From the NCBI RefSeq assembly GCF_014840935.1, contig NZ_CP062005.1, forward strand, positions 682,001 through 746,000: a stretch of DNA of 64,000 nt. The letters run 5' to 3'. The notes under the pieces are model-generated. The model searched no databases and was not told the origin of the DNA. It saw only the letters and a list, made by a program, of their open reading frames with translations. Positions 1,988 to 12,569 of this stretch are shown piece by piece. Origin of the DNA: Halomonas sp. YLGW01 (lineage in GTDB: Bacteria > Pseudomonadota > Gammaproteobacteria > Pseudomonadales > Halomonadaceae). The translations under genes were made by a program, and so were the position numbers. Within the stretch, counting starts at the first letter, position 1, and the number at the start of each line of letters is the position of its first letter.

Positions 1988-3544
1988 TCAGGGCTCGCAG
2001 TTGGCGGTATGACGCAGGCGCAGCCGGGCCCGCAGGTGGCGGGCCAGGGCATCGACGCCGATATTGAGCAGGGCGGTGATCAGGATCAGCACCATGGCGC
2101 GGTCGAAGCGGATCTCCTGGATGGCGCTGTCGACGTAGAACCCCAGGGTGGTGATGCCGAGAATGCCGAGAATGGCCGTCTCGCGCATGATGATCTCCCA
2201 GCGATAGAACAGTAGCGCGAGGAAGGGGCCATAGAGGCGCGGCGTCAGCTCATAGGCATAGCGCGAAAGGCCCCGTGGGGCGTCCGGACGCAGGCGGATT
2301 TCGTTGCTGCGCCGGCCGACCAGGTGGCCGATGATGCCGCCGTTGTGAATCGCCAGCGCCACCACCGCCGGCAGCATCGAGGGCCCCCAGAGCTGCAGCA
2401 GGATGAAGGCCAGCAGGTATTCGGGGGTCGATCGCAGCACCACCAGCAGGCCGTGGCCGAGCAGGTGGGGCAGGCGGGTGCCCGGGAGGCCGTCGCCGCT
2501 GCGATGACCATTGGTGTGATGATCGTCGGCAAGGGCAGAGCGGCGTTGAAAAGAGTGTCGTTGGAAAAAGTGACGGGACACCAGCGGGTAGAGCACAAGC
2601 GCCAGCATGCCGGTCAGCACCAGGGCGATCTGGGTCAGCACCAGGGTATGCCAGATGCCGGGCAGCGCCTGATTGGCCAGCAGATCCCCTAGCCAGCCGG
2701 CGAGGCCGGACAGCCCCTCGCCCTGGCGCAGCGGCGCGGGCACGATATCTTCGGTGAAGAAGCGCGAGACGTTGCTCCACACGATCGGCAGGCCGCTGCC
2801 CAGGCAGAAGGGCGCCACGGCCAGATACACCGGCACCAGCCAGGGCCGCACCCAGAGCCTCAGGGTGGCGATCAGGGCGTAAAACAGCAGCAGCAGGGCG
2901 CCCACGGTGTCGTAGTGGCCCTGGGCGAAGGCCGATTCCAGGTAGAAGCCGAGGGTCGGCATGCCGACGAAGCCCAGCACGGCGCTGGAGCGCAGGCCGC
3001 ACTCGAGTCGGTAGCTGGTATAGCTGACCAGATGCGGCCAGGCCTCGTGCAGGCGGGTGAAGGCAAGCGTAGAGAGCCGGCCGCTGCCCGACGGCAGCAC
3101 TCGTTCGGGCAGCGGGTCGGTTTCCTCGAGGATCTCGGCAAAGACCTTGGCGAAGACCCCGGCATAGGGCAGGGCGATGGCCAGCACCCCGGTCAGCGGG
3201 TGCAGGCCAAAGAACTGCAGGAAGATCAGCGCCCAGAACAGTTCATGGATGGCGCGCACGAAGGCACAGAGGCTGCGTACCAGACGAGAGCGAAAGACCA
3301 GCGCCAGCAGGAAGCCCGCCGCCGCGCCGAGCCCCACGCCGACGAAGGCGAAGGCCAGGGTACGCAGCAGGGCTACCCCCAGTGCATCGACGGCGCTGAC
3401 ATCCGGCTGCACCAGGCCCTTTACCAGCCGGAGGAGCTCGTGCCAGGGATCGTGGGCGGTGATGGACAGATCGGCGAGGCCGAGGCAGAGAATCGCCAGG
3501 GCCACGAAGCCCAGGCTTAAACGAGCCGTTGCGGAATGCCACAT
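1988..3544 (-). CDS. fused PhnE-type ABC transporter permease (putative selenium-oxyanion/phosphonate importer)
   Basis: 518 residues containing two PhnE-like inner-membrane permease modules in one chain (about 1-265 and 290-518). Each has several hydrophobic helices and a PhnE-type motif near its end: ETDPLPERVLP with GFVGMPTLGFYLES in the first half, and ETAILGILGITTLGFYVDSAI in the second. Members of this family form the membrane channel for phosphonate, phosphite or related oxyanions. The gene lies 26 bases after the ATPase gene and is the last of three transporter genes on the same strand downstream of the selD fusion. That context favours a selenium-oxyanion substrate, which is inference. 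A separate PhnE1/PhnE2 pair would be more usual than a fusion. Confidence 0.85.
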   Translation of the reverse strand: MWHSATARLSLGFVALAILCLGLADLSITAHDPWHELLRLVKGLVQPDVSAVDALGVALLRTLAFAFVGVGLGAAAGFLLALVFRSRLVRSLCAFVRAIHELFWALIFLQFFGLHPLTGVLAIALPYAGVFAKVFAEILEETDPLPERVLPSGSGRLSTLAFTRLHEAWPHLVSYTSYRLECGLRSSAVLGFVGMPTLGFYLESAFAQGHYDTVGALLLLFYALIATLRLWVRPWLVPVYLAVAPFCLGSGLPIVWSNVSRFFTEDIVPAPLRQGEGLSGLAGWLGDLLANQALPGIWHTLVLTQIALVLTGMLALVLYPLVSRHFFQRHSFQRRSALADDHHTNGHRSGDGLPGTRLPHLLGHGLLVVLRSTPEYLLAFILLQLWGPSMLPAVVALAIHNGGIIGHLVGRRSNEIRLRPDAPRGLSRYAYELTPRLYGPFLALLFYRWEIIMRETAILGILGITTLGFYVDSAIQEIRFDRAMVLILITALLNIGVDALARHLRARLRLRHTANCEP

Positions 3545-3570
3545 GGGAAAGGCCTTGCGGATGGGGTGCC

Positions 3571-4224
3571 TCAGTAGAGCGGCAACAGGTCCTGGGCGGT
3601 GAGCCGCACGCTGGGGGCGTCCAGCGCGATGCCGCCTTCGGCGATGCCGATCACCCGGTCGGTGAAGCGCAGCGCCAGCTCGACGTCGTGCATGGCCAGC
3701 ACGGCGGTGGGGTAGGCGCGGGTCAGCTCGACCATTAGCGTTTCCGACTGGGGGCCGTCCAGCGCCGAGACCGGCTCGTCGGCCAGCAATACCTCGCCGC
3801 CCTGGTGAATCGCCCGCGCCGCGGCCACCCGCTGGCGCTGGCCGCCGGAGAGCTCACCGGCCACCGCCCAGCACTTGTCATCGATCGCGAGCCGTGCGAG
3901 CAGCGGCCGGATGGCCGCCACGTCACGGCGGAAGGGCCGCGCCAGGGTCACCAGGTTGTACCAGGTGGGGTGCGTCGCCAGGGCGCCCATGTAGACGTTA
4001 TGGAAGACGCTGAGCGAGGGCACCAGGCCCAGATCCTGAGGCATCAGGGCCGCGCCGCGGCCCTGCCAGTGCTGGTACATCACCGACAAAAGACTCGATT
4101 TGCCTGCGCCGCTCTTGCCGACCAGCGCGACCCGCTCGCCACGCTTGAGGGTCAGGCTGAGCGGCCCCAGCACACGGCTGGCGCCATAGTCGGCGACCGC
4201 CTCGGTCAGGGCCAGGCTGCTCAT
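3571..4224 (-). CDS. PhnC-type ABC transporter ATP-binding protein
   Basis: 217 residues, somewhat short for PhnC. Walker A GKSGAGKSS (36-44), Q-loop MPQDLG (about 61-66), signature LSGGQRQ (125-131), Walker B VLLADE (145-150) and the H-loop histidine (MHDVEL, 179) are all present, so it should be a competent ATPase. Its ATG overlaps the stop codon of the upstream binding-protein gene by one base (ATGA arrangement), which implies translational coupling. With the neighbouring binding protein and fused permease it makes a complete importer. Substrate is inferred from the neighbouring selD fusion, not from this sequence. Confidence 0.88.
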   Translation of the reverse strand: MSSLALTEAVADYGASRVLGPLSLTLKRGERVALVGKSGAGKSSLLSVMYQHWQGRGAALMPQDLGLVPSLSVFHNVYMGALATHPTWYNLVTLARPFRRDVAAIRPLLARLAIDDKCWAVAGELSGGQRQRVAAARAIHQGGEVLLADEPVSALDGPQSETLMVELTRAYPTAVLAMHDVELALRFTDRVIGIAEGGIALDAPSVRLTAQDLLPLY

Positions 4225-5078
4225 CAGTCGATCAGGCCCAGTTCCTGGCCGACGGACTCGATGATTGCATAGTCATCATTGCTGGCCGGGATGAAGCCGG
4301 AGCGGGGGAAGCTTTCCAGCAGCTCGGGGGCATCCATGTCGAGCAGGGCCTGCTGGACGCGATCGGCGAAGCCGGCGCCGAAGCGCTCGTTCACGTCGCC
4401 GCGGATGGTCCACTGGTAGTCCGGGTAGTTCGGGGTCTTCCACACCACCTCGACCTGGTCGGTGTCGATGTTGCCGGCCTCGACCTCGTTTTCCCACACC
4501 GTGTAGTTGACCGCGCCCAGGTCATAGGCGCCGGAGGCCACCAGCGAGATGGTGCGGCTGTGGTTGCCGCTGAAGCCGACCCGCGAGAAGATCTCTTCCG
4601 GCGGCTGGCCGAAGGCCTCGCGCAGGAAGTACTCGGGCATCAGACGCCCTGAGGTGGAGCCCTTGGAGCCGAAGGTGAAGGTCTTGTCGCGCATCGCCTC
4701 GGACAGGCCTTCCCCGGCCTCGAGGCCAGTGCTCTGGTGGGCGATGAAGTAGGTCATGAACTCGGCGTCCTCGACCCCCTGGGCGAGGGCGCGAGAATCC
4801 GGCACTCGGGCGCGGGCCTGCACGCCGGAGAGGCCGCCGAACCAGGCCAGCTGGACCTGGTTGTTGCGAAAGGCGGTGACGGCGGCAGCATAGGACTTCA
4901 CGGGCACGAAGCGCACGTCTACCTCGAGTTCGTCTTCCAGGTAGTCGGCGACCTTCTGGAAGCGCTGCTGCAGACGGGTCTCGTCCTCGTCGGGAATGGC
5001 CGTGAAGACGAAGGTCTCGGCGCTGGCGACGGGGGCGGCCAGCAGCACGGTCAGGGCGAGAGTCAGGCGCTTGAGCAT
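4224..5078 (-). CDS. PhnD-family periplasmic substrate-binding protein, putative selenate/selenium-oxyanion ABC transporter
   Basis: 284 residues from the chosen start. The frame is open further upstream, but the ATG at 5078 is preceded by AAGGACCCCC and begins a clear signal peptide (MLKRLTLALTVLLAAPVASA). The mature part opens with FVFTAIPDEDETRLQQRF and contains YAAAVTAFRNNQVQLAWFGGLSG, the typical PhnD-family ligand loop. From general knowledge, a PhnD subfamily is often encoded next to selD and is annotated as a putative selenate-binding protein; the E-D-E-x-R start and the selD neighbour fit this. Phosphonate or phosphite remains possible. It is followed by the ATPase with overlapping codons. 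Confidence 0.85.
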   Translation of the reverse strand: MLKRLTLALTVLLAAPVASAETFVFTAIPDEDETRLQQRFQKVADYLEDELEVDVRFVPVKSYAAAVTAFRNNQVQLAWFGGLSGVQARARVPDSRALAQGVEDAEFMTYFIAHQSTGLEAGEGLSEAMRDKTFTFGSKGSTSGRLMPEYFLREAFGQPPEEIFSRVGFSGNHSRTISLVASGAYDLGAVNYTVWENEVEAGNIDTDQVEVVWKTPNYPDYQWTIRGDVNERFGAGFADRVQQALLDMDAPELLESFPRSGFIPASNDDYAIIESVGQELGLID

Positions 5079-5189
5079 CGAAGGGGGTCCTTGTGAAACG
5101 AGGGAAGAGCCGCCATGGCGGGCCGGATCAGGCGCTATGGTACTCAAAGGGGGGCGTCTTGTCCTGCCGGACGCTCGCGCCCCCCGCCC

Positions 5190-7511
5190 TCAGGCGCCGA
5201 GCCGGATCGGCGCCGGATCGTCGTTGGGAGCGTCGCCGGGAGCGTCCTCCGGCGCCAGCACCCGGCCGATGATCGCCGCCTCGCCATAGCCCAATGCCTG
5301 GAGTTCGGCGAGGCAGGCCTCGGCCCGGTCGGGCGGCACCCCGGCCAGCAGGCCGCCGGCGGTCTGGGGGTCGAAGAGCAGTGGGTAGCGGGGATGCTCG
5401 CGCCACTGCGCCTGATCGCGGAGGGCTCGGCGCAGGCGCACGTTGGCCGGCTGTAGCGAGCTCAGGATGCCGGCGGCGGCGGTGGCCTCGGCGCCCTCGA
5501 GCAGCGGCAGCGCCGACAGCGAGAGCTCGGCGTCGACGCCGGAAGGGCGCGTCATCTCGATCAGGTGGCCGAGCAGGCCGAAGCCGGTGACATCGGTGCA
5601 GGCGCGAGCGCCGTGAGCCACGAGGCAGGTCGCGCCTGCCTGGTTCGACTGGCACATGCTGTCAAGCGCCGCATCGATCCAGCGTCCGCGGGCGGCGAGC
5701 TGGGCCTGGGCGGCGAACAGGGTGCCGGTGCCCAGTGGCTTGGTGAGGATCAGGGCATCTCCCGGGCGCAGGCCGCCCTTGCGCAGGGGGCGCTCGGGCG
5801 CCTCATCGATCAGACCGTTGACGGCGAAGCCGAGCGCCAGTTCCTGGCCCTCGCCGGTATGACCGCCGACCAGCTGGCAGCCGGCGGCGTCGAGCACCTT
5901 AACGGCGCCGGTCATCATCTGGCGCACCGTGTCCTCGACCTTGGCCTCGAGCCCCGGCGGCACCGTGGCCACGGCCATTGCGGTCTGAGCCTCGGCGCCC
6001 ATGGCGAAGATATCGCCCAGCGCATGGTGGGCGGCGACCTGCCCGAACACATAGGGGTCATCGATGAAGGCGCGAAAGAAGTCGATGCTGTGCACCATGG
6101 CCTTGCCCGGCGGTACCCGCACCACGGCGGCATCGTCGGGGTCAGCGAGCCCCACCAGTACCTCGTCGCGCGTGATCGGGGCGAGATCGGCAAGCGCCCG
6201 GGACAGTACCGAGGCGCCGACCTTGGCCCCGCAGCCGCCGCAGCGCATGGCCAGCGCCGAGAGCGCCTGGTGCTGCTCGGCGTCGTCCAGCGGCACTCGG
6301 GGCGCAGCGCGGGATGACTTGCCCTCGCTCATCGCCGGCAGCGCATTGAAGCGCGCCATGAAGTTCCGGTCGATGCGGTCCTTCCAGCGCCACAGCCAGG
6401 CTCCGGCCCAGGACAGGGGGCCGCGGGAGGCCACGGCGTAGCGGTCGCCGCTGCTGATCAGCGCCAGCCACTGGCGCTGCGGACAGTAGGCCGTCAGCGT
6501 CTTGCCGATCAGGCTGGCGCGCAGGTTGTCGGCCAGTGGCCGCCCCTGGCGCACCGCGAACACGCCGGCCTTCTCCCGGGGCCGGTCGTCCTGGCTGGCG
6601 ATATCGCCGGCGGCGAAGATATCCGGGTCGTTGACGCTCTGCAGGTAGTCGTTGACGCGGATGAAGCCCTGCTCATTCAGGGCTAGGCCGGTGCCCTCGA
6701 GCCAGGAGGCGCCGCCGGCCTGGGTCACCCAGACGGTCTCGTCGGCGGCGAAGGCCTCGCCGCGGGCATCGATCAACCGATCGGCCTCGACCCGGGTGAT
6801 CTCGCAGTCGGTATGCACCGCGACTCCGCGGGCCTGTAACAGATGCATGAAGCGGGCCCGCACCCGGCGATTGTGAGTGGGCAGGATCTCGGCGCTCTGG
6901 GTGAAGAGGGCGCAGCGGAGCGCGTCCGGGTCGCGGCCCTGAGCCGAGAGCTCATGGCGCAGGCGATGCTGCATGGCCAGCAGCAGCTCGACACCGCCGG
7001 CACCGCCGCCCACCACGGCGAGCCGCAGGGGCGCTTCAAGGGTGGCGGGGCGCTGGGCGAGACGCGTGAGCAATTCACGCCAGCGCTCGCGGAAGGCGCG
7101 GATCGGCTTGACCGCGACCGCATGATCCTCGGCGCCGGCCACCTGGCCGACTCGAGGGGTCGAGCCGATGTTGATCGAAAGCTTGTCGTAGGGCAGCGGC
7201 GGGCGATGGGCGAAGGTCACCCTGTGTGCGGTGCGCTCGATGCCGGAGGCCTCGTCGCGGATGAAGCGGGCGCCGGCGGCCTGAGCCAGGCGGCGCAGGT
7301 CGATGTGGACCTCGTCGAAGTCGTAGTGCCCGGCCACATAGCCCGGCAGCATGCCGGAATAGGGGGTATGGGTATCGCGGCAGACGAGTGTCAGGCGCAC
7401 CCCGGGTTCCGGGCGCATGGCGAAGCGCCGCAGCACGGCGACATGGCTGTGCCCGCCGCCGATGAGCACGATATCGCGACGGATCGGAGAGGAAGCTGTC
7501 TGCATGCGCAT
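5190..7511 (-). CDS. selD: selenide, water dikinase SelD fused to an N-terminal NADH-dehydrogenase-like FAD oxidoreductase
   Basis: 773 residues from the ATG at 7511; a second ATG lies two codons later. The longer upstream frame would run through a terminator-like hairpin and is rejected. Residues about 1-370 form an NDH-2-like flavoprotein: IVLIGGGHSHVAVLRRF is an FAD-binding Rossmann motif, VVGGGAGGVELLLA a second nucleotide-binding motif, and DIFAAGDIAS the C-terminal FAD motif. From about residue 405 the chain is SelD, which makes selenophosphate from selenide and ATP. RCGGCGAKVG carries Cys427 and Lys430 at the positions of the E. coli catalytic Cys17 and Lys20; VGGHTGEG and TDVTGFGLLGHL are also SelD motifs. 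It is a cysteine form, with no selenocysteine codon needed. No selA, selB or selU lies in the window. It probably heads the transporter operon. Confidence 0.92.
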   Translation of the reverse strand: MRMQTASSPIRRDIVLIGGGHSHVAVLRRFAMRPEPGVRLTLVCRDTHTPYSGMLPGYVAGHYDFDEVHIDLRRLAQAAGARFIRDEASGIERTAHRVTFAHRPPLPYDKLSINIGSTPRVGQVAGAEDHAVAVKPIRAFRERWRELLTRLAQRPATLEAPLRLAVVGGGAGGVELLLAMQHRLRHELSAQGRDPDALRCALFTQSAEILPTHNRRVRARFMHLLQARGVAVHTDCEITRVEADRLIDARGEAFAADETVWVTQAGGASWLEGTGLALNEQGFIRVNDYLQSVNDPDIFAAGDIASQDDRPREKAGVFAVRQGRPLADNLRASLIGKTLTAYCPQRQWLALISSGDRYAVASRGPLSWAGAWLWRWKDRIDRNFMARFNALPAMSEGKSSRAAPRVPLDDAEQHQALSALAMRCGGCGAKVGASVLSRALADLAPITRDEVLVGLADPDDAAVVRVPPGKAMVHSIDFFRAFIDDPYVFGQVAAHHALGDIFAMGAEAQTAMAVATVPPGLEAKVEDTVRQMMTGAVKVLDAAGCQLVGGHTGEGQELALGFAVNGLIDEAPERPLRKGGLRPGDALILTKPLGTGTLFAAQAQLAARGRWIDAALDSMCQSNQAGATCLVAHGARACTDVTGFGLLGHLIEMTRPSGVDAELSLSALPLLEGAEATAAAGILSSLQPANVRLRRALRDQAQWREHPRYPLLFDPQTAGGLLAGVPPDRAEACLAELQALGYGEAAIIGRVLAPEDAPGDAPNDDPAPIRLGA

Positions 7512-7575
7512 GGTCTCTGCAAGGCGGTAACGGGAGAGCGTGACGGCTGGCCGGATGGCACCCGCCAGCAATAAA

Positions 7576-7606
7576 AAGGTCCAGCCCCGACGTGGGGCTG
7601 GACCTT
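7576..7606 (-). terminator. strong hairpin upstream of selD
   Basis: AAGGTCCAGCCCC (7576-7588) pairs perfectly with GGGGCTGGACCTT (7594-7606) across a 5-nt loop. On the minus strand the stem is followed by a T-rich stretch. It lies between the XRE gene and selD on that strand, so it is most simply the terminator of the XRE gene. An attenuator in the selD leader is the alternative. Confidence 0.7.
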
Positions 7607-7710
7607 CATAGTCTATCGGCCGGGCGTGGCTTGACGCCATGCCGTCGTCAGCGCAGCACGTCAGGCGCGGCGAGGCATTAGCCGAAGGGGCAGATCAGGG
7701 GAGTCATGTC

Positions 7711-7998
7711 CTAGGGTGGCAGGGGACTGCCATCATCGACGCACACGCAGTTGCGCAGCGATTGAAGCTCGTCGACCGAGAAGTGCTCGATCTTGCCGGC
7801 CAGCAGGTCGCTGAGCCGCTTGGAGGGGATGCCCGCGCGTTGGGCGATCTCGCGGTTGGGAAGCTCGGAAAGAGCGATCTTGCGGGAAACGATGCGCATC
7901 AGGCGCGAACGCTTCTCCAGTTCCCTGACGTCCAGGTCGGGTGCCATTCGCGAGGGTTCGAGGGCATCCCAACCGGTCGATAATCGTGCCGTACTCAT
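7711..7998 (-). CDS. XRE-type helix-turn-helix protein, orphan antitoxin-like
   Basis: 95 residues. The centre (NREIAQRAGIPSKRLSDLLAGKIEHFSVDEL, about residues 48-78) is a helix-turn-helix of the small XRE proteins that usually act as antitoxins of HigB/Gp49-like toxins. The ATG is preceded by GGAG at 5 nt. No toxin partner is present on either side: upstream lies an intergenic gap and the divergent yaeQ, downstream the terminator hairpin and selD. It could be a solitary regulator, possibly of its own or neighbouring promoters. The family assignment is good; the role is unknown. Confidence 0.75.
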   Translation of the reverse strand: MSTARLSTGWDALEPSRMAPDLDVRELEKRSRLMRIVSRKIALSELPNREIAQRAGIPSKRLSDLLAGKIEHFSVDELQSLRNCVCVDDGSPLPP

Positions 7999-8904: not shown

Positions 8905-9864
8905 ATGCGCGTTCTCAAGTATGCCCTCGCCGCGTCGCTGATCGCGGCCTCGTCCTCGGCCACGGCCCAGCAGCTGTCGATCGCCACCGGCGGCACCGGC
9001 GGCACCTATTACCCCTACGGTGGCGGCATCGCCGAGCTGATCAACAACCAGCTCGAGGGCTTTGAAGCCGTCGCCGAGGTCACCGGTGCCTCGGTCGAGA
9101 ACATGGCGTTGATCTATCGCGAGGATTCGGACCTGGCCATCGCCCTGGCCGACACCGTCTACCAGGCCTACTCTGGCACCGGCGACTTCGACGGTCGTCA
9201 GGTCGAGGACGTGCGCGCCATCGCCTCTTTGTACCCGAACGCGGTACAGATCGTGACCCTGGCCGATTCCGGCATCGAGAGCCTCTCGGACCTCGAGGGC
9301 AAGGTGGTGTCGGTAGGTGCGCCGGGCAGCGGCACCGAGCTCAATGCCCGCGCCGTGCTCGAGTCCAACGGCATCAGCTACGACGACTTCGATCCGCGCC
9401 GGCTGAACTTCAACGAGACCGCCGATGCGCTGCGCGACGGCGATATCGCCGCCGGCTTCTGGAGCGTCGGCCCGCCGACCAGCTCGATCCTCAACCTGGC
9501 CACCACCCGCGACATCCGCCTGATCGGTCTGACCGATGAGGAAGTCGCCAATGCTCGTCAGGAATCCGAGGTGTTCGCCCCCTACAAGCTGCGTGCCGGC
9601 ATCTACGAAGGCGTCGAGGAGCCCGTGCAGACCATTGGCGTCCCCAACGTGCTGACCGTCAATGCCGCCATGGATGATCAGCTCGCCTATGACATCACCA
9701 AGCTCTTGTTCGAGCAGACCGACAAGCTGATCGCCATCCATCCGGCGGCCAACGACACCACCGTGGAGTTCAGCGTGGATGCCACGCCGATCCCCTTCCA
9801 CCCGGGCGCCCTGCGCTACTACGAGGAAGTGGGCGCCGAGGTGGCGGACCATCAGCGGCCGTGA
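8905..9864 (+). CDS. TAXI-family TRAP transporter solute-binding protein
   Basis: 319 residues. It opens with a signal peptide (MRVLKYALAASLIAASSSATA) followed by LSIATGGTGGTYYPYGGGIAELIN, the hallmark of TAXI-type periplasmic binding proteins. AAGGAG stands 5 nt before the ATG. TAXI proteins capture organic acids such as C4-dicarboxylates or glutamate and deliver them to a sodium- or proton-driven permease. The DUF1850 gene and the fused permease follow on the same strand, giving a complete module. The substrate cannot be read from sequence. Confidence 0.92.
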   Translation: MRVLKYALAASLIAASSSATAQQLSIATGGTGGTYYPYGGGIAELINNQLEGFEAVAEVTGASVENMALIYREDSDLAIALADTVYQAYSGTGDFDGRQVEDVRAIASLYPNAVQIVTLADSGIESLSDLEGKVVSVGAPGSGTELNARAVLESNGISYDDFDPRRLNFNETADALRDGDIAAGFWSVGPPTSSILNLATTRDIRLIGLTDEEVANARQESEVFAPYKLRAGIYEGVEEPVQTIGVPNVLTVNAAMDDQLAYDITKLLFEQTDKLIAIHPAANDTTVEFSVDATPIPFHPGALRYYEEVGAEVADHQRP

Positions 9865-9868
9865 GGTC

Positions 9869-10459
9869 ATGATGTTATTGACCCAAGATGATGCACAGGG
9901 GCGAGCCGGCGGGCTCGCCCCCTTGTGTTTAGGCGGCCTGCGTTTCGGCACCTTCCGTCTCGACCTTGGCCGTCGGCACGCTTTCCTTGGGCTGCTGGCG
10001 GCGATGCTGATCGTCGCCGCTTCGCCCGCGCTTGCCGACGGTAGCGACGAGGATCGCCTGCTCCAGGTGCGGGATCGCCACGGGACGCTGCTGGTGAGCC
10101 TGCCGATGCCAGAGGGCGAGGGCTGGTGCCTTGAGTGGAACCACTCGGTCGAGGGCTTTCCGGTGCTCGACTGCTACCGCAACCAGCAGGGCCGAATGGT
10201 GCTCGAGCGCAGCCATCAGCCAGACTTCGCCGCCGGGCTCGGGCATGTGCCGGGTCGGGGGCGTCAGGTCAGCGACGGTGAGGGTGGCTACTGGATCGAG
10301 GAGATCCAGGAGCCGGTGCCCGGCGACCGCTACCTGCTGCGGGTTGGGGCGTTGCGGGTCGATCATCGCCTGATCCGCGAGGGCCGGACCATCAGCCTGA
10401 GCGAGCTGGCGGCCGGGCAGCGGGTCAGCATCGGGCTGCGCCCGCTACCGTCGCCCTGA
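9869..10459 (+). CDS. DUF1850 domain protein of the TRAP module
   Basis: About 196 residues from the first ATG after the TAXI stop, 4 bases downstream; a second ATG follows directly. A hydrophobic stretch (HAFLGLLAAMLIVAASPALA, about residues 39-58) reads as a membrane anchor or late signal peptide. The exported part contains WCLEWNHSVEGFPVLDCYRNQQGRMVLERS, typical of DUF1850 proteins, which are very often encoded between a TAXI binding protein and a TRAP 4TM/12TM fused permease. Its role is unknown; it may be an accessory factor of the transporter. The next gene starts about 100 bases further on. Confidence 0.82.
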   Translation: MMLLTQDDAQGRAGGLAPLCLGGLRFGTFRLDLGRRHAFLGLLAAMLIVAASPALADGSDEDRLLQVRDRHGTLLVSLPMPEGEGWCLEWNHSVEGFPVLDCYRNQQGRMVLERSHQPDFAAGLGHVPGRGRQVSDGEGGYWIEEIQEPVPGDRYLLRVGALRVDHRLIREGRTISLSELAAGQRVSIGLRPLPSP

Positions 10460-10559
10460 TTGTGCCGCCCGGCGCCACTTGGAGGCCGGGTGGTGTTACC
10501 TTACCGATTCTCCGTATGCGATCTTCGCGTACTCGACTCTAGTGTACTGAAGGGACTCC

Positions 10560-12569
10560 ATGAGCGATTCGGCAACTTCTCCTATCGTGCCTGGCAGCCA
10601 GGCCCCCCATGCGCGACCGATCCTGTGGCTGATCGCCCTGGTGGCGGTGGGCCTGTCGCTGTTTCAGCTCTATTCGGCGGGCATCGAGCCGCTGGGGCTC
10701 TTCTACCAGCGCAGCATTCACCTGGCGCTGATCATGATGCTGGCCTTCCTGATGTTCCCGGTGTTCGGTCCGCACCACCGGCGGGGCGTCGTTGGGGGCA
10801 TCATCGACCTGGCCTTCTTCGCCGGCGCGCTGATCACCGGCGGTTACCTGGTGCTGTATCTGGATGACATCTTCAACCGCGCCGGCTTCTGGAACCAGAC
10901 CGACATCGTGGTGGGCTGCATCGCCACGGTCACGGTGCTGGAGGCGAGCCGTCGGGCGGTGGGCCTCGGCATGACGGTGATCGGGATCCTGGCGCTGCTC
11001 TATGCCTTCGCCGGGCCCCGAGGCGAGCTGCCCTGGCTGGGTCAGTTCCTGCCCGGGATCATGGAGCATCGCGGCTACAACCTGGACCGGGTCGTGGGCC
11101 AGCTGTACCTGGGGCAGGAGGGCATCTTCGGCCTGCCGATGGGGGTCGCCGCCACCTACATCTTCATCTTCGTGTTGTTCGGCGCCTTTCTCGAGATCAC
11201 CGGCGCGGGCAAGTTCTTCATCGACCTGGCCTATGCGGCCACCGGGCGCCAGCGCGGCGGCCCGGCCAAGGCGGCGGTGATCGCCTCGGCCGGCATGGGC
11301 TCGATCTCCGGCAGTGCGATCGCCAACGTGGTCACCACCGGGGCCTTCACCATTCCGCTGATGAAGCGGCTGGGCTTCAAGCCGGCCCAGGCCGGTGGCA
11401 TCGAGGCCGCGGCCTCCACCGGTGGGCAGATCATGCCGCCGCTGATGGGGGCGGGCGCCTTCCTGATCGCCGAATACACCCAGATGCCCTACCTCGAGGT
11501 GGTCAAGGTCAGCGTGCTGCCGGCGATTCTCTACTTCGCCACCGTTTATTTGTTCGTGCACATCATCGCCCTCAAGCAGGGCATGCAGGGCATGCCGCGC
11601 GCGGAGTTGCCACAGATGCGCGAGGTGATGCGCGAGGGCTGGCACTTCCTGCTGCCGCTGGGGGTGCTGGTATGGCTGCTGGTGATGAACATGTCGCCGA
11701 TGCGGGTCGGCTACTTCGCGGTGATCACCATGCTGGTAGTGGCGGCGCTGCGCTTCTCGGTGTGGTTCCTGTTCGTGGCCCCGGCCGAGGGCCAGCCGGT
11801 GACCGGCAAGCGGATCGGCGAGGCGCTGTGGGCGGGCCTGGTCAAGCTGACCCGGGGCCTGGAGCTCGGCGCGCGCAATGCCGTGGCGGTGTCGATGGCC
11901 TGTGCGGTGGCCGGCATCATCGTCGGTGTGGTCGGTCTTACCGGCCTCGGGCTCAAGTTCTCGGCGATGATGCTGGCCTTCTCGGACGGCAACCTGCTGC
12001 TGGCGCTGGTGATGGTACTGCTGGCGAGCCTGGTACTGGGCATGGGCCTGCCGGTCACGGCGAGCTATATCGTGCTGATCGTGCTGGTCGGCCCGGCGCT
12101 CTCCAATGAGTTCGGCGTGCCGCTGCTGATCGCCCACCTGGTGGTGTTCTGGTACTCCCAGGACTCCAACGTCACGCCGCCGATTGCGCTGGCGGGCTTC
12201 GCCGGGGCGGCGATTGCCGGCAGCAAGCCGATGGAAACCGGCTTTCAGGCCTGGAAGTTCGCCAAGGGCCTCTACCTGATTCCGCTGTTCATGGTCTTCA
12301 ATCCGGAGATCATCGTCGGCGGCCCGGTGCCGGTGGTGATCTGGAACGGCCTGATCGCCATCCTGGCGTTGGGCGCCTTCGCGGCGGCCCTGGAGGGCTA
12401 CCTGTTCACTCGCATGTCCTGGCCGGTGCGGCTGGCCATCGTGCCGGCGATCGTCGCGGTCTTCTACCCGGACCTGCGCGCCGAGATCATAGGTGCCGCC
12501 GTGATGACGCTGGCCATCGCCGGCAACTGGCTGGCCTGCCGCCGGGAGGCATCGGCAACGGCGGCCTGA
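10560..12569 (+). CDS. TRAP transporter permease, fused small and large subunits (4TM/12TM)
   Basis: 669 residues with many long hydrophobic segments. The first four (to about residue 140) correspond to the small DctQ-like part and the rest to the DctM-like channel. AASTGGQIMPPLMGAGAFLIAEYT and GSISGSAIANVVTTGAFTIPLMKR are conserved motifs of this fused family, as are LGMGLPVTASYIVLIVL and SQDSNVTPPIALAGFAGAAIAGSKPMETG near the end. AAGGGA precedes the ATG. It pairs with the upstream TAXI protein as an ion-driven importer of a carboxylate-like solute in the inner membrane. A strong terminator follows. Confidence 0.93.
   Translation: MSDSATSPIVPGSQAPHARPILWLIALVAVGLSLFQLYSAGIEPLGLFYQRSIHLALIMMLAFLMFPVFGPHHRRGVVGGIIDLAFFAGALITGGYLVLYLDDIFNRAGFWNQTDIVVGCIATVTVLEASRRAVGLGMTVIGILALLYAFAGPRGELPWLGQFLPGIMEHRGYNLDRVVGQLYLGQEGIFGLPMGVAATYIFIFVLFGAFLEITGAGKFFIDLAYAATGRQRGGPAKAAVIASAGMGSISGSAIANVVTTGAFTIPLMKRLGFKPAQAGGIEAAASTGGQIMPPLMGAGAFLIAEYTQMPYLEVVKVSVLPAILYFATVYLFVHIIALKQGMQGMPRAELPQMREVMREGWHFLLPLGVLVWLLVMNMSPMRVGYFAVITMLVVAALRFSVWFLFVAPAEGQPVTGKRIGEALWAGLVKLTRGLELGARNAVAVSMACAVAGIIVGVVGLTGLGLKFSAMMLAFSDGNLLLALVMVLLASLVLGMGLPVTASYIVLIVLVGPALSNEFGVPLLIAHLVVFWYSQDSNVTPPIALAGFAGAAIAGSKPMETGFQAWKFAKGLYLIPLFMVFNPEIIVGGPVPVVIWNGLIAILALGAFAAALEGYLFTRMSWPVRLAIVPAIVAVFYPDLRAEIIGAAVMTLAIAGNWLACRREASATAA

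Follow-up and report, generated by a model that had tools for sequence, protein, structure and literature searches.

A candidate operon for selenium uptake and activation in Halomonas sp. YLGW01, with selenite as the most likely substrate

A stretch of 64,000 nucleotides from Halomonas sp. YLGW01 (contig NZ_CP062005.1, positions 682,001 to 746,000; hereafter the window) encodes, on one strand, a flavoprotein fused to SelD (selenophosphate synthetase) and the three components of an ATP-binding cassette (ABC) importer. We propose that this locus is an operon for the acquisition and activation of selenium, that its substrate is most likely selenite, and that the selenophosphate it yields goes to SelU; we give this reading a probability of roughly 70%. 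In the proposed pathway, the periplasmic binding protein would capture selenium as an oxyanion, selenite being the most likely, for transfer into the cell by the ABC transporter. Reduction of selenite to selenide would then take place in the cytoplasm, perhaps aided by the flavoprotein half of the fusion, and the SelD half would make selenophosphate, from which SelU would form 2-selenouridine in tRNA. According to reviews from 2022 (PMC9312934) and 2026 (PMC13188914), a specific, high-affinity transport system for selenium has yet to be identified in prokaryotes; this locus is a concrete candidate for a selenium-specific importer, with selenite as its predicted ligand. The genes and domains are:

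5190 to 7511, minus strand: oxidoreductase/SelD fusion, 773 amino acids, from a likely ATG at 7511 to the stop at 5190
6282 to 7511, minus strand: flavin adenine dinucleotide (FAD)/NAD(P)H oxidoreductase domain of the fusion (TIGR03169), NDH-2-like
5190 to 6281, minus strand: SelD domain of the fusion (TIGR00476), with the motif CGGCGAK
4224 to 5078, minus strand: substrate-binding protein (TIGR04553), 284 amino acids, probable selenite binder
3571 to 4224, minus strand: ABC ATPase, PhnC-like by profile and motifs, under the PhnC cut-off
1988 to 3544, minus strand: fused two-module permease, PhnE-PhnE-like, under the PhnE cut-off, 518 amino acids

An earlier note on this DNA had described an NDH-2-like FAD domain joined to a complete SelD, followed on the same strand by a binding protein, an ATPase whose start overlaps the preceding stop, and a fused permease, and all of this is confirmed. 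(An in-frame ATG at 7640, upstream of a hairpin at 7607-7575 described below, is a less likely start for the fusion.) The binding protein is likely to start at the ATG at 5078 and not at the TTG at 5147, and its translation reads as having a signal-peptide-like N terminus. The start of the ATPase gene overlaps the stop of the binding-protein gene by one base (TGATG), and the ATPase has the Walker A, LSGGQ, and ADEP motifs. The permease has 13 hydrophobic stretches, some of them overlapping, and two stretches that match PhnE (TIGR01097; 195.5 bits, against a cut-off of 216.7). A pattern scan of the minus strand from 7511 to 1988 gave a single terminator-like site, which is weak and lies within coding sequence (6097-6083). 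From this layout, it is plausible that the fusion and the importer genes are on one transcript.

Comparisons across genomes give good support for selenium as the cargo of the importer. The binding protein matches TIGR04553, a family that NCBIfam names "putative selenate" binding, at 421 bits (cut-off 250); the earlier note had pointed to a PhnD subfamily near selD with this annotation. We searched for the family in 58 genomes (YLGW01 and its relatives) and in 203 genomes from across the class, YLGW01 included. A TIGR04553 protein over the cut-off is encoded by 30 of the 58 genomes, and all 30 also encode SelD and SelU, which are present in 43 and 42 of the 58 overall (Fisher p = 1.3e-6 and 3.8e-7, uncorrected for the kinship of the genomes). 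Class-wide, SelD is present in all seven of the genomes with a TIGR04553 protein and in 36 of the 196 others (43/203 overall; p = 1.3e-5). SelU is present in five of these seven, and in the other two (G183 and G211; G and L numbers are our handles for genomes and loci), senB, senA, and the fusion surround the binding protein. For six near relatives below the TIGR04553 cut-off, SelD was found in none (0/6; two of the genomes are 72% and 86% complete).

The gene neighbourhoods agree with the co-occurrence. For the best 80 of 557 loci, we sought selenium genes within 8-kilobase flanks. Near the binding protein we found the SelD fusion in 55 of the 80 (two with frameshifts), senB in 47, and senA in 9; three loci have a stand-alone selD with selU, two have the flavoprotein without a recognised SelD, and in one SelD lies at a contig end. 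(Among these best 80, the nearest named loci are from Onishia, also of the Halomonadaceae.) Plasmids yielded 17 matching records, of which 6 regions were read; their gene tables, which are incomplete, were searched for SelD, SelU, SenA, SenB, and the flavoprotein. On a plasmid of Paracoccus marcusii, the importer adjoins fdnG, fdhE, selA, and selB, and on a Sphaerotilus plasmid the order is mnmH, ATPase, permease, binding protein, and selD. Thus, a single importer family is linked to selenouridine, selenocysteine, and selenoneine genes, and with any cargo other than selenium, such linkage to three uses of the element in separate lineages would be difficult to account for.

The earlier note's account depended on the genome having a selenium-using enzyme, and it does. 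SelU (also known as MnmH) scores 307.8 bits (cut-off 219.75) and deviates in none of 112 conserved columns. A role in selenocysteine synthesis was considered for this genome and rejected: selA gave no match and the best match to selB reached 184 of 242 bits, with tRNA-Sec not searched for genome-wide. The selU gene adjoins a second selD:

G000:C1:350712-351626 (L099 5713-6627): stand-alone SelD, 370 bits, over the selD cut-off

This stand-alone protein has GAGGGQV where all six genus sisters have GAGCGCKI, so that the catalytic Cys17 and Lys20 are lost, and it deviates in 13 of 160 conserved columns, versus 0 to 2 of 158 in the six sisters. Its ratio of nonsynonymous to synonymous substitution rates (dN/dS) is 0.141 in comparisons with the sisters and 0.043 among the sisters, at similar dS. 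There is no such jump for selU (0.100 with the sisters and 0.103 among them) or for the SelD half of the fusion (0.159 and 0.123); the sisters compared for the fusion are partly, but not wholly, the same as those compared for selD-selU. Most simply read, these data mean that the stand-alone SelD is no longer active and that the fusion, which appears to be the only intact selenium-activating enzyme of this genome, supplies SelU. Because the other SelD lacks the catalytic cysteine and lysine, the fusion probably feeds SelU. Furthermore, eight relatives encode no SelD over the cut-off other than the fusion, and each of them has SelU, so a fusion can probably serve SelU alone. In this lineage, the usual SelD thus appears to have been replaced by a fused one.

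Stand-alone SelDs without the catalytic cysteine recur in the Halomonadaceae (this genome; L117, L127, and L128). Their motifs are GGGQ in this genome, GSGCK and GSDCK in G036 and G013, which have no selU over the cut-off, and GGGK in a second copy in G021. These proteins may be pseudoenzymes with another role. A different departure is seen at L171 (G191), in a non-fusion SelD whose catalytic position is occupied by an in-frame TGA (CAG*AAK); this is probably a selenocysteine form.

Both parts of the fusion are clear members of their families: the N-terminal part matches TIGR03169 at 497 bits (cut-off 310) and the C-terminal part matches the selD family TIGR00476 at 297 bits (cut-off 125). (The family TIGR04369, named "fusion_not_SelD", was also tried for the fusion and rejected, as the score of 471 bits is under its cut-off of 700.) The SelD half has the motif MRCGGCGAK, whose cysteine and lysine align with the catalytic ones of E. 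coli SelD (3u0o, 164 bits). We compared 65 intact fusions, a set that omits two with frameshifts (L056 and L069) that are counted among the 55 fusion loci. All 65 have a CxxC at the catalytic cysteine together with the catalytic lysine, and 60 of them have MRCGGCGAK itself; the CxxC is found in none of 26 stand-alone SelDs. A fusion of SelD to a COG1252 NADH-dehydrogenase-like domain, which is the same architecture, was described in cyanobacteria in 2005 (PMC1273633) and in cyanobacteria and others in 2008 (PMC2432076). What sets the Halomonas fusion apart from those is that it adjoins an importer of its own and that the second SelD of the genome lacks the catalytic motif. A reductive role for the SelD-fused flavoprotein was also proposed in 2008 (PMC2432076), so that idea is not new.

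The flavoprotein half may either reduce a selenium species directly or have an NDH-2-like role. In Halomonas salipaludis (L052), the flavoprotein domain is encoded alone (468 bits), immediately ahead of the binding protein, an arrangement that connects it with the imported substrate as well as with SelD. It is somewhat unlikely that this half plays no part in reducing selenium and works instead as an NADH:quinone oxidoreductase of the NDH-2 kind, in regulation, or in placing the protein at the membrane. Its nearest solved structures are indeed of the NDH-2 type (the closest is 5kmq, at 89 bits, which we take to be NDH-2), and its relatives in Pseudanabaena and in Qingshengfaniella, where the flavoprotein is fused to mnmH, adjoin cytochrome bd genes. 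Also, the domain has no invariant cysteine across the 65 fusions, which counts against a disulfide relay. However, Cys44 is present in 58 of the 65 and leaves room for its involvement (another position is cysteine in 52 of the 65 and phenylalanine in the window's fusion), and a reductase partner could serve the CxxC that distinguishes the fusions from stand-alone SelDs. The arrangement in H. salipaludis also argues against a role unrelated to selenium.

The binding protein belongs with a group of proteins that have been studied as phosphorus binders. Its closest solved relatives are the PhnD1 proteins of Synechococcus MITS9220 (7s6g, 245 bits) and Prochlorococcus MIT9301 (5lq5, 213 bits), both of which also score above the cut-off of TIGR04553 (334 and 297 bits); PtxB is more distant (107 bits). 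Against the PhnD family TIGR03431, the window protein scores 136.7 bits (cut-off 261.1), which separates it from the PhnD phosphonate binders, and the ATPase scores 138.1 bits against the PhnC equivalog (cut-off 266.1). We built a tree of 46 rows (41 hand-chosen from the loci and the window, and five PDB chains). The window protein and PhnD1 fall in a 37-row clade with support of 100/99 and PtxB falls outside it, in a tree that is unrooted and carries a long-branch warning. The nine rows outside the clade are three PtxB, three relatives below the cut-off, and the proteins from Sphaerotilus, G056, and G164; as these last three are linked to selenium or over the cut-off, the clade lacks some selenium-linked members. 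The earlier note had set its selenium reading against a grouping with phosphonate or phosphite families, and here the outcome is divided: the nearest characterised relatives do bind phosphite in vitro, but by score they belong to the selenium-linked family, and they stand apart from PtxB.

The ligand contacts reported for PhnD1 (Y44, S124, T125, S126, H156, D203, and Y204; PMC10284923) are all kept in the window protein. It shares the STS-His motif and the capping tyrosine with PtxB and PhnD as well, but the three PtxB carry glutamine, not aspartate, at the position of Asp203.

Phosphite and selenite each present three oxygens, with a small fourth position in phosphite and a lone pair in selenite, while selenate is tetrahedral, like phosphate. 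Judging from the pKa values, hydrogen selenite can carry a proton near pH 8 and selenate cannot. The affinities of PhnD1 discriminate between the two shapes. For the Prochlorococcus protein (Pm_PhnD1), the dissociation constants by thermophoresis were 0.051 µM for phosphite and 182 µM for phosphate (PMC5700983), and calorimetry in work cited by PMC10284923 gave 0.12 for phosphite and 54.9 for phosphate. Four Synechococcus PhnD1 proteins bound phosphite at 0.67-4.3 µM and phosphate at 7.4-88 µM (PMC10284923), and from these values we computed a 6- to 52-fold preference for phosphite. Because the PhnD1 pocket is shared and three-oxygen phosphite is preferred over tetrahedral phosphate, we infer that selenite is the most likely ligand of the importer. 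So, of the earlier note's proposal that the importer feeds a selenium oxyanion, selenium as the cargo is borne out by the co-occurrence and the neighbourhoods, while the pocket and the affinities of the relatives would favour selenite over selenate.

It is improbable that the importer carries selenate, as the NCBIfam name has it, with reduction inside the cell. The window protein is well over the TIGR04553 cut-off and adjoins both SelD and TIGR03169, but the name is a prediction, picocyanobacterial PhnD1 is over the cut-off too, and both the name and the linkage to SelD suit any selenium oxyanion. The evidence here, including the low affinity of PhnD1 for a tetrahedral ion, favours selenite. 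Another argument against selenate is that the pocket aspartate has been read as contacting a protonated ligand (PMC5700983), given the protonation states described above; this argument is weakened by the presence of asparagine at the Asp203 position in 21 of 110 aligned rows. On the side of selenate is an association with oxyanion reduction, as 9 of the 80 loci (L008, L009, L011, L012, L015, L017, L020, L021, and L022) have a tetrathionate-reductase-like operon near the importer. The protein from L009, the sole one scanned, scores 1319 bits against TtrA (cut-off 1750). This tetrathionate-reductase-like enzyme may reduce selenate to selenite in the periplasm.

We also consider it doubtful that the locus is what remains of a selenoneine locus after the loss of senA and senB, with a fusion that feeds no needed pathway. 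The idea has some appeal. In related genera, senB (with senA in nine of the 80 loci) is found either between the fusion and the binding protein or next to them, and in many loci from Halomonas and Marinobacter it is flanked by this fusion and importer; this is what the locus has in common with the selenoneine cluster senA-senB-senC. In contrast to those loci, searches for senA and senB gave nothing in this genome (G000) or in six genus sisters, one of which is 88% complete, and a role in selenoneine synthesis in this genome was rejected for that reason. However, the fusion and the binding protein look constrained (dN/dS of 0.10-0.18 for the window against six loci of the genus), and this genome has kept selU while its one other SelD is without the catalytic motif.

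Selenium might also account for the picocyanobacterial system. Each of the 97 picocyanobacteria sequenced and held in Cyanorak is reported to have PhnD1, with tesA as the conserved neighbour (PMC10284923). It was not induced by phosphorus starvation in studies cited by the same paper, and two Synechococcus strains did not grow on phosphite or methylphosphonate; the authors call the system paradoxical and propose a role with phosphate (PMC10284923). The SelD of Prochlorococcus and Synechococcus has an N-terminal NADH-dehydrogenase-like part, and cyanobacteria possess ybbB (selU), which is not contiguous with selD (PMC1273633). Put together, these reports place the binding protein, the fusion, and SelU in picocyanobacteria, just as in YLGW01. 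PhnD1 shares its clade and its ligand contacts with the window protein, but it is described as a phosphorus binder only (PMC10284923 and PMC5700983), with tesA as its reported neighbour, while the window protein adjoins the SelD fusion. We would give roughly even odds to a broader proposal: that the TIGR04553 transporters are the missing selenium-specific importers of bacteria, of the selenite type, that PhnD1C1E1 is one of them, that its binding of phosphite is selenite mimicry, and that it feeds the SelD-flavoprotein fusion and the selenouridine pathway. If true, this would explain, through selenium, why a transporter that is widespread in the ocean shows growth data at odds with a role in phosphorus uptake.

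A phosphite, phosphate, or methylphosphonate importer that adjoins selenium genes by chance is very unlikely: the measured affinities of the closest characterised relatives fit it, as do the binding protein's scores over the cut-offs of Pfam Phosphonate-bd and TIGR01098, but the ATPase, binding protein, and permease are all under the PhnC, PhnD, and PhnE cut-offs, PhnJ (carbon-phosphorus lyase) gave no match in this genome at E 1e-20 (no search was made for phosphite dehydrogenase) and is present in 5 of the 30 genomes that encode the binding protein, the linkage to three uses of selenium recurs across lineages, and the growth and induction data from Synechococcus (PMC10284923) do not fit.

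Several observations do weigh against a selenium importer feeding SelU. The TIGR04553 proteins that have been measured so far bind phosphite, phosphate, and methylphosphonate (PMC10284923 and PMC5700983), and in a ligand screen, Synechococcus PhnD1 was stabilised only by mixtures with phosphorus sources (PMC10284923). None of the literature examined demonstrates binding or transport of selenium by a member of the family. Our search of open-access papers found no test of the family with selenium, no paper that combines selenite, phosphite, and PhnD, and none that joins selenophosphate synthetase, PhnD, selenate, and transporter; the main text of PMC10284923 and that of PMC5700983 are both free of the letters "selen". 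The sole open-access paper found to use the name "putative selenate ABC transporter" interprets the system as an exporter of selenite (PMC13077682). Also, the selenium-linked rows L101 and L144 vary at further contact sites, and the relatives L146-L148, which are below the cut-off and lack SelD, share the first-shell residues, so the pocket alone cannot separate selenium from phosphorus. Among the 80 loci, 18 have none of the selenium genes that were sought in the flanks, and 4 of the 6 plasmid regions have no selenium gene nearby (in one of these four, from Rhodobacter CZR27, a pair of mnmH and selD-fusion genes lies elsewhere on the same replicon). The genomes are related and are not independent samples. 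Finally, the stand-alone SelD of YLGW01 is still a full-length reading frame and may keep some function or have another one.

Upstream of the fusion are two further features:

7575 to 7607, minus strand: terminator-like hairpin that separates the fusion from the HTH gene, from a pattern scan and an alignment
7711 to 7998, minus strand: HTH_37 DNA-binding protein (PF13744, by Pfam match), upstream of the fusion

The hairpin is followed by a run of T and is found in all seven aligned genus loci. Two pairs of its stem are changed on both sides (one pair in two loci and the other in one), and two other pairs are broken in one or two loci. Together with the sequence next to it, it forms a conserved block directly upstream of the fusion in the seven loci (7575-7680, minus strand), perhaps an ordinary terminator or else an attenuator. 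A known RNA element was considered here and rejected, as nothing between 7490 and 7780 attains the gathering score of any Rfam family. The HTH_37 protein is a possible regulator, and its gene is probably on a separate transcript. In L010, L016, L018, L034, and L074, where no fusion was found, the HTH_37 gene is directly upstream of the importer.

Other relatives of these proteins occur in different settings. In Burkholderia, stand-alone flavoproteins related to the N-terminal half of the fusion lie beside arsenosugar genes. At L025, L026, and L050 (from Modicisalibacter and a Halomonas), a large FAD oxidoreductase is encoded upstream of the importer, and its N terminus reads as TVP38-type (L050 was scanned); annotated TVP38-FAD fusions are also found near stand-alone flavoproteins in Burkholderia and Sphingopyxis (L166 and L167). 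Five near relatives of the binding protein that are below the cut-off (L155-L158 and L160), from genomes without SelD, look lipoprotein-like from their translations and have sensor-like neighbours with no recognised permease, and these proteins may be sensory rather than involved in transport. A pattern-based search of viral contigs with two queries found no relatives.

Within the window, the permease gene is followed on the minus strand by a gene for a secreted-looking protein of 260 residues (1112-1894) without a family match; among the compared loci, it is matched only here and, weakly, in L013. On the plus strand, 8905-12569 encodes in a row a TAXI-type TRAP binding protein (TIGR02122, 343 bits), a DUF1850 protein, and a large protein that, by reading of its translation only, resembles a permease.

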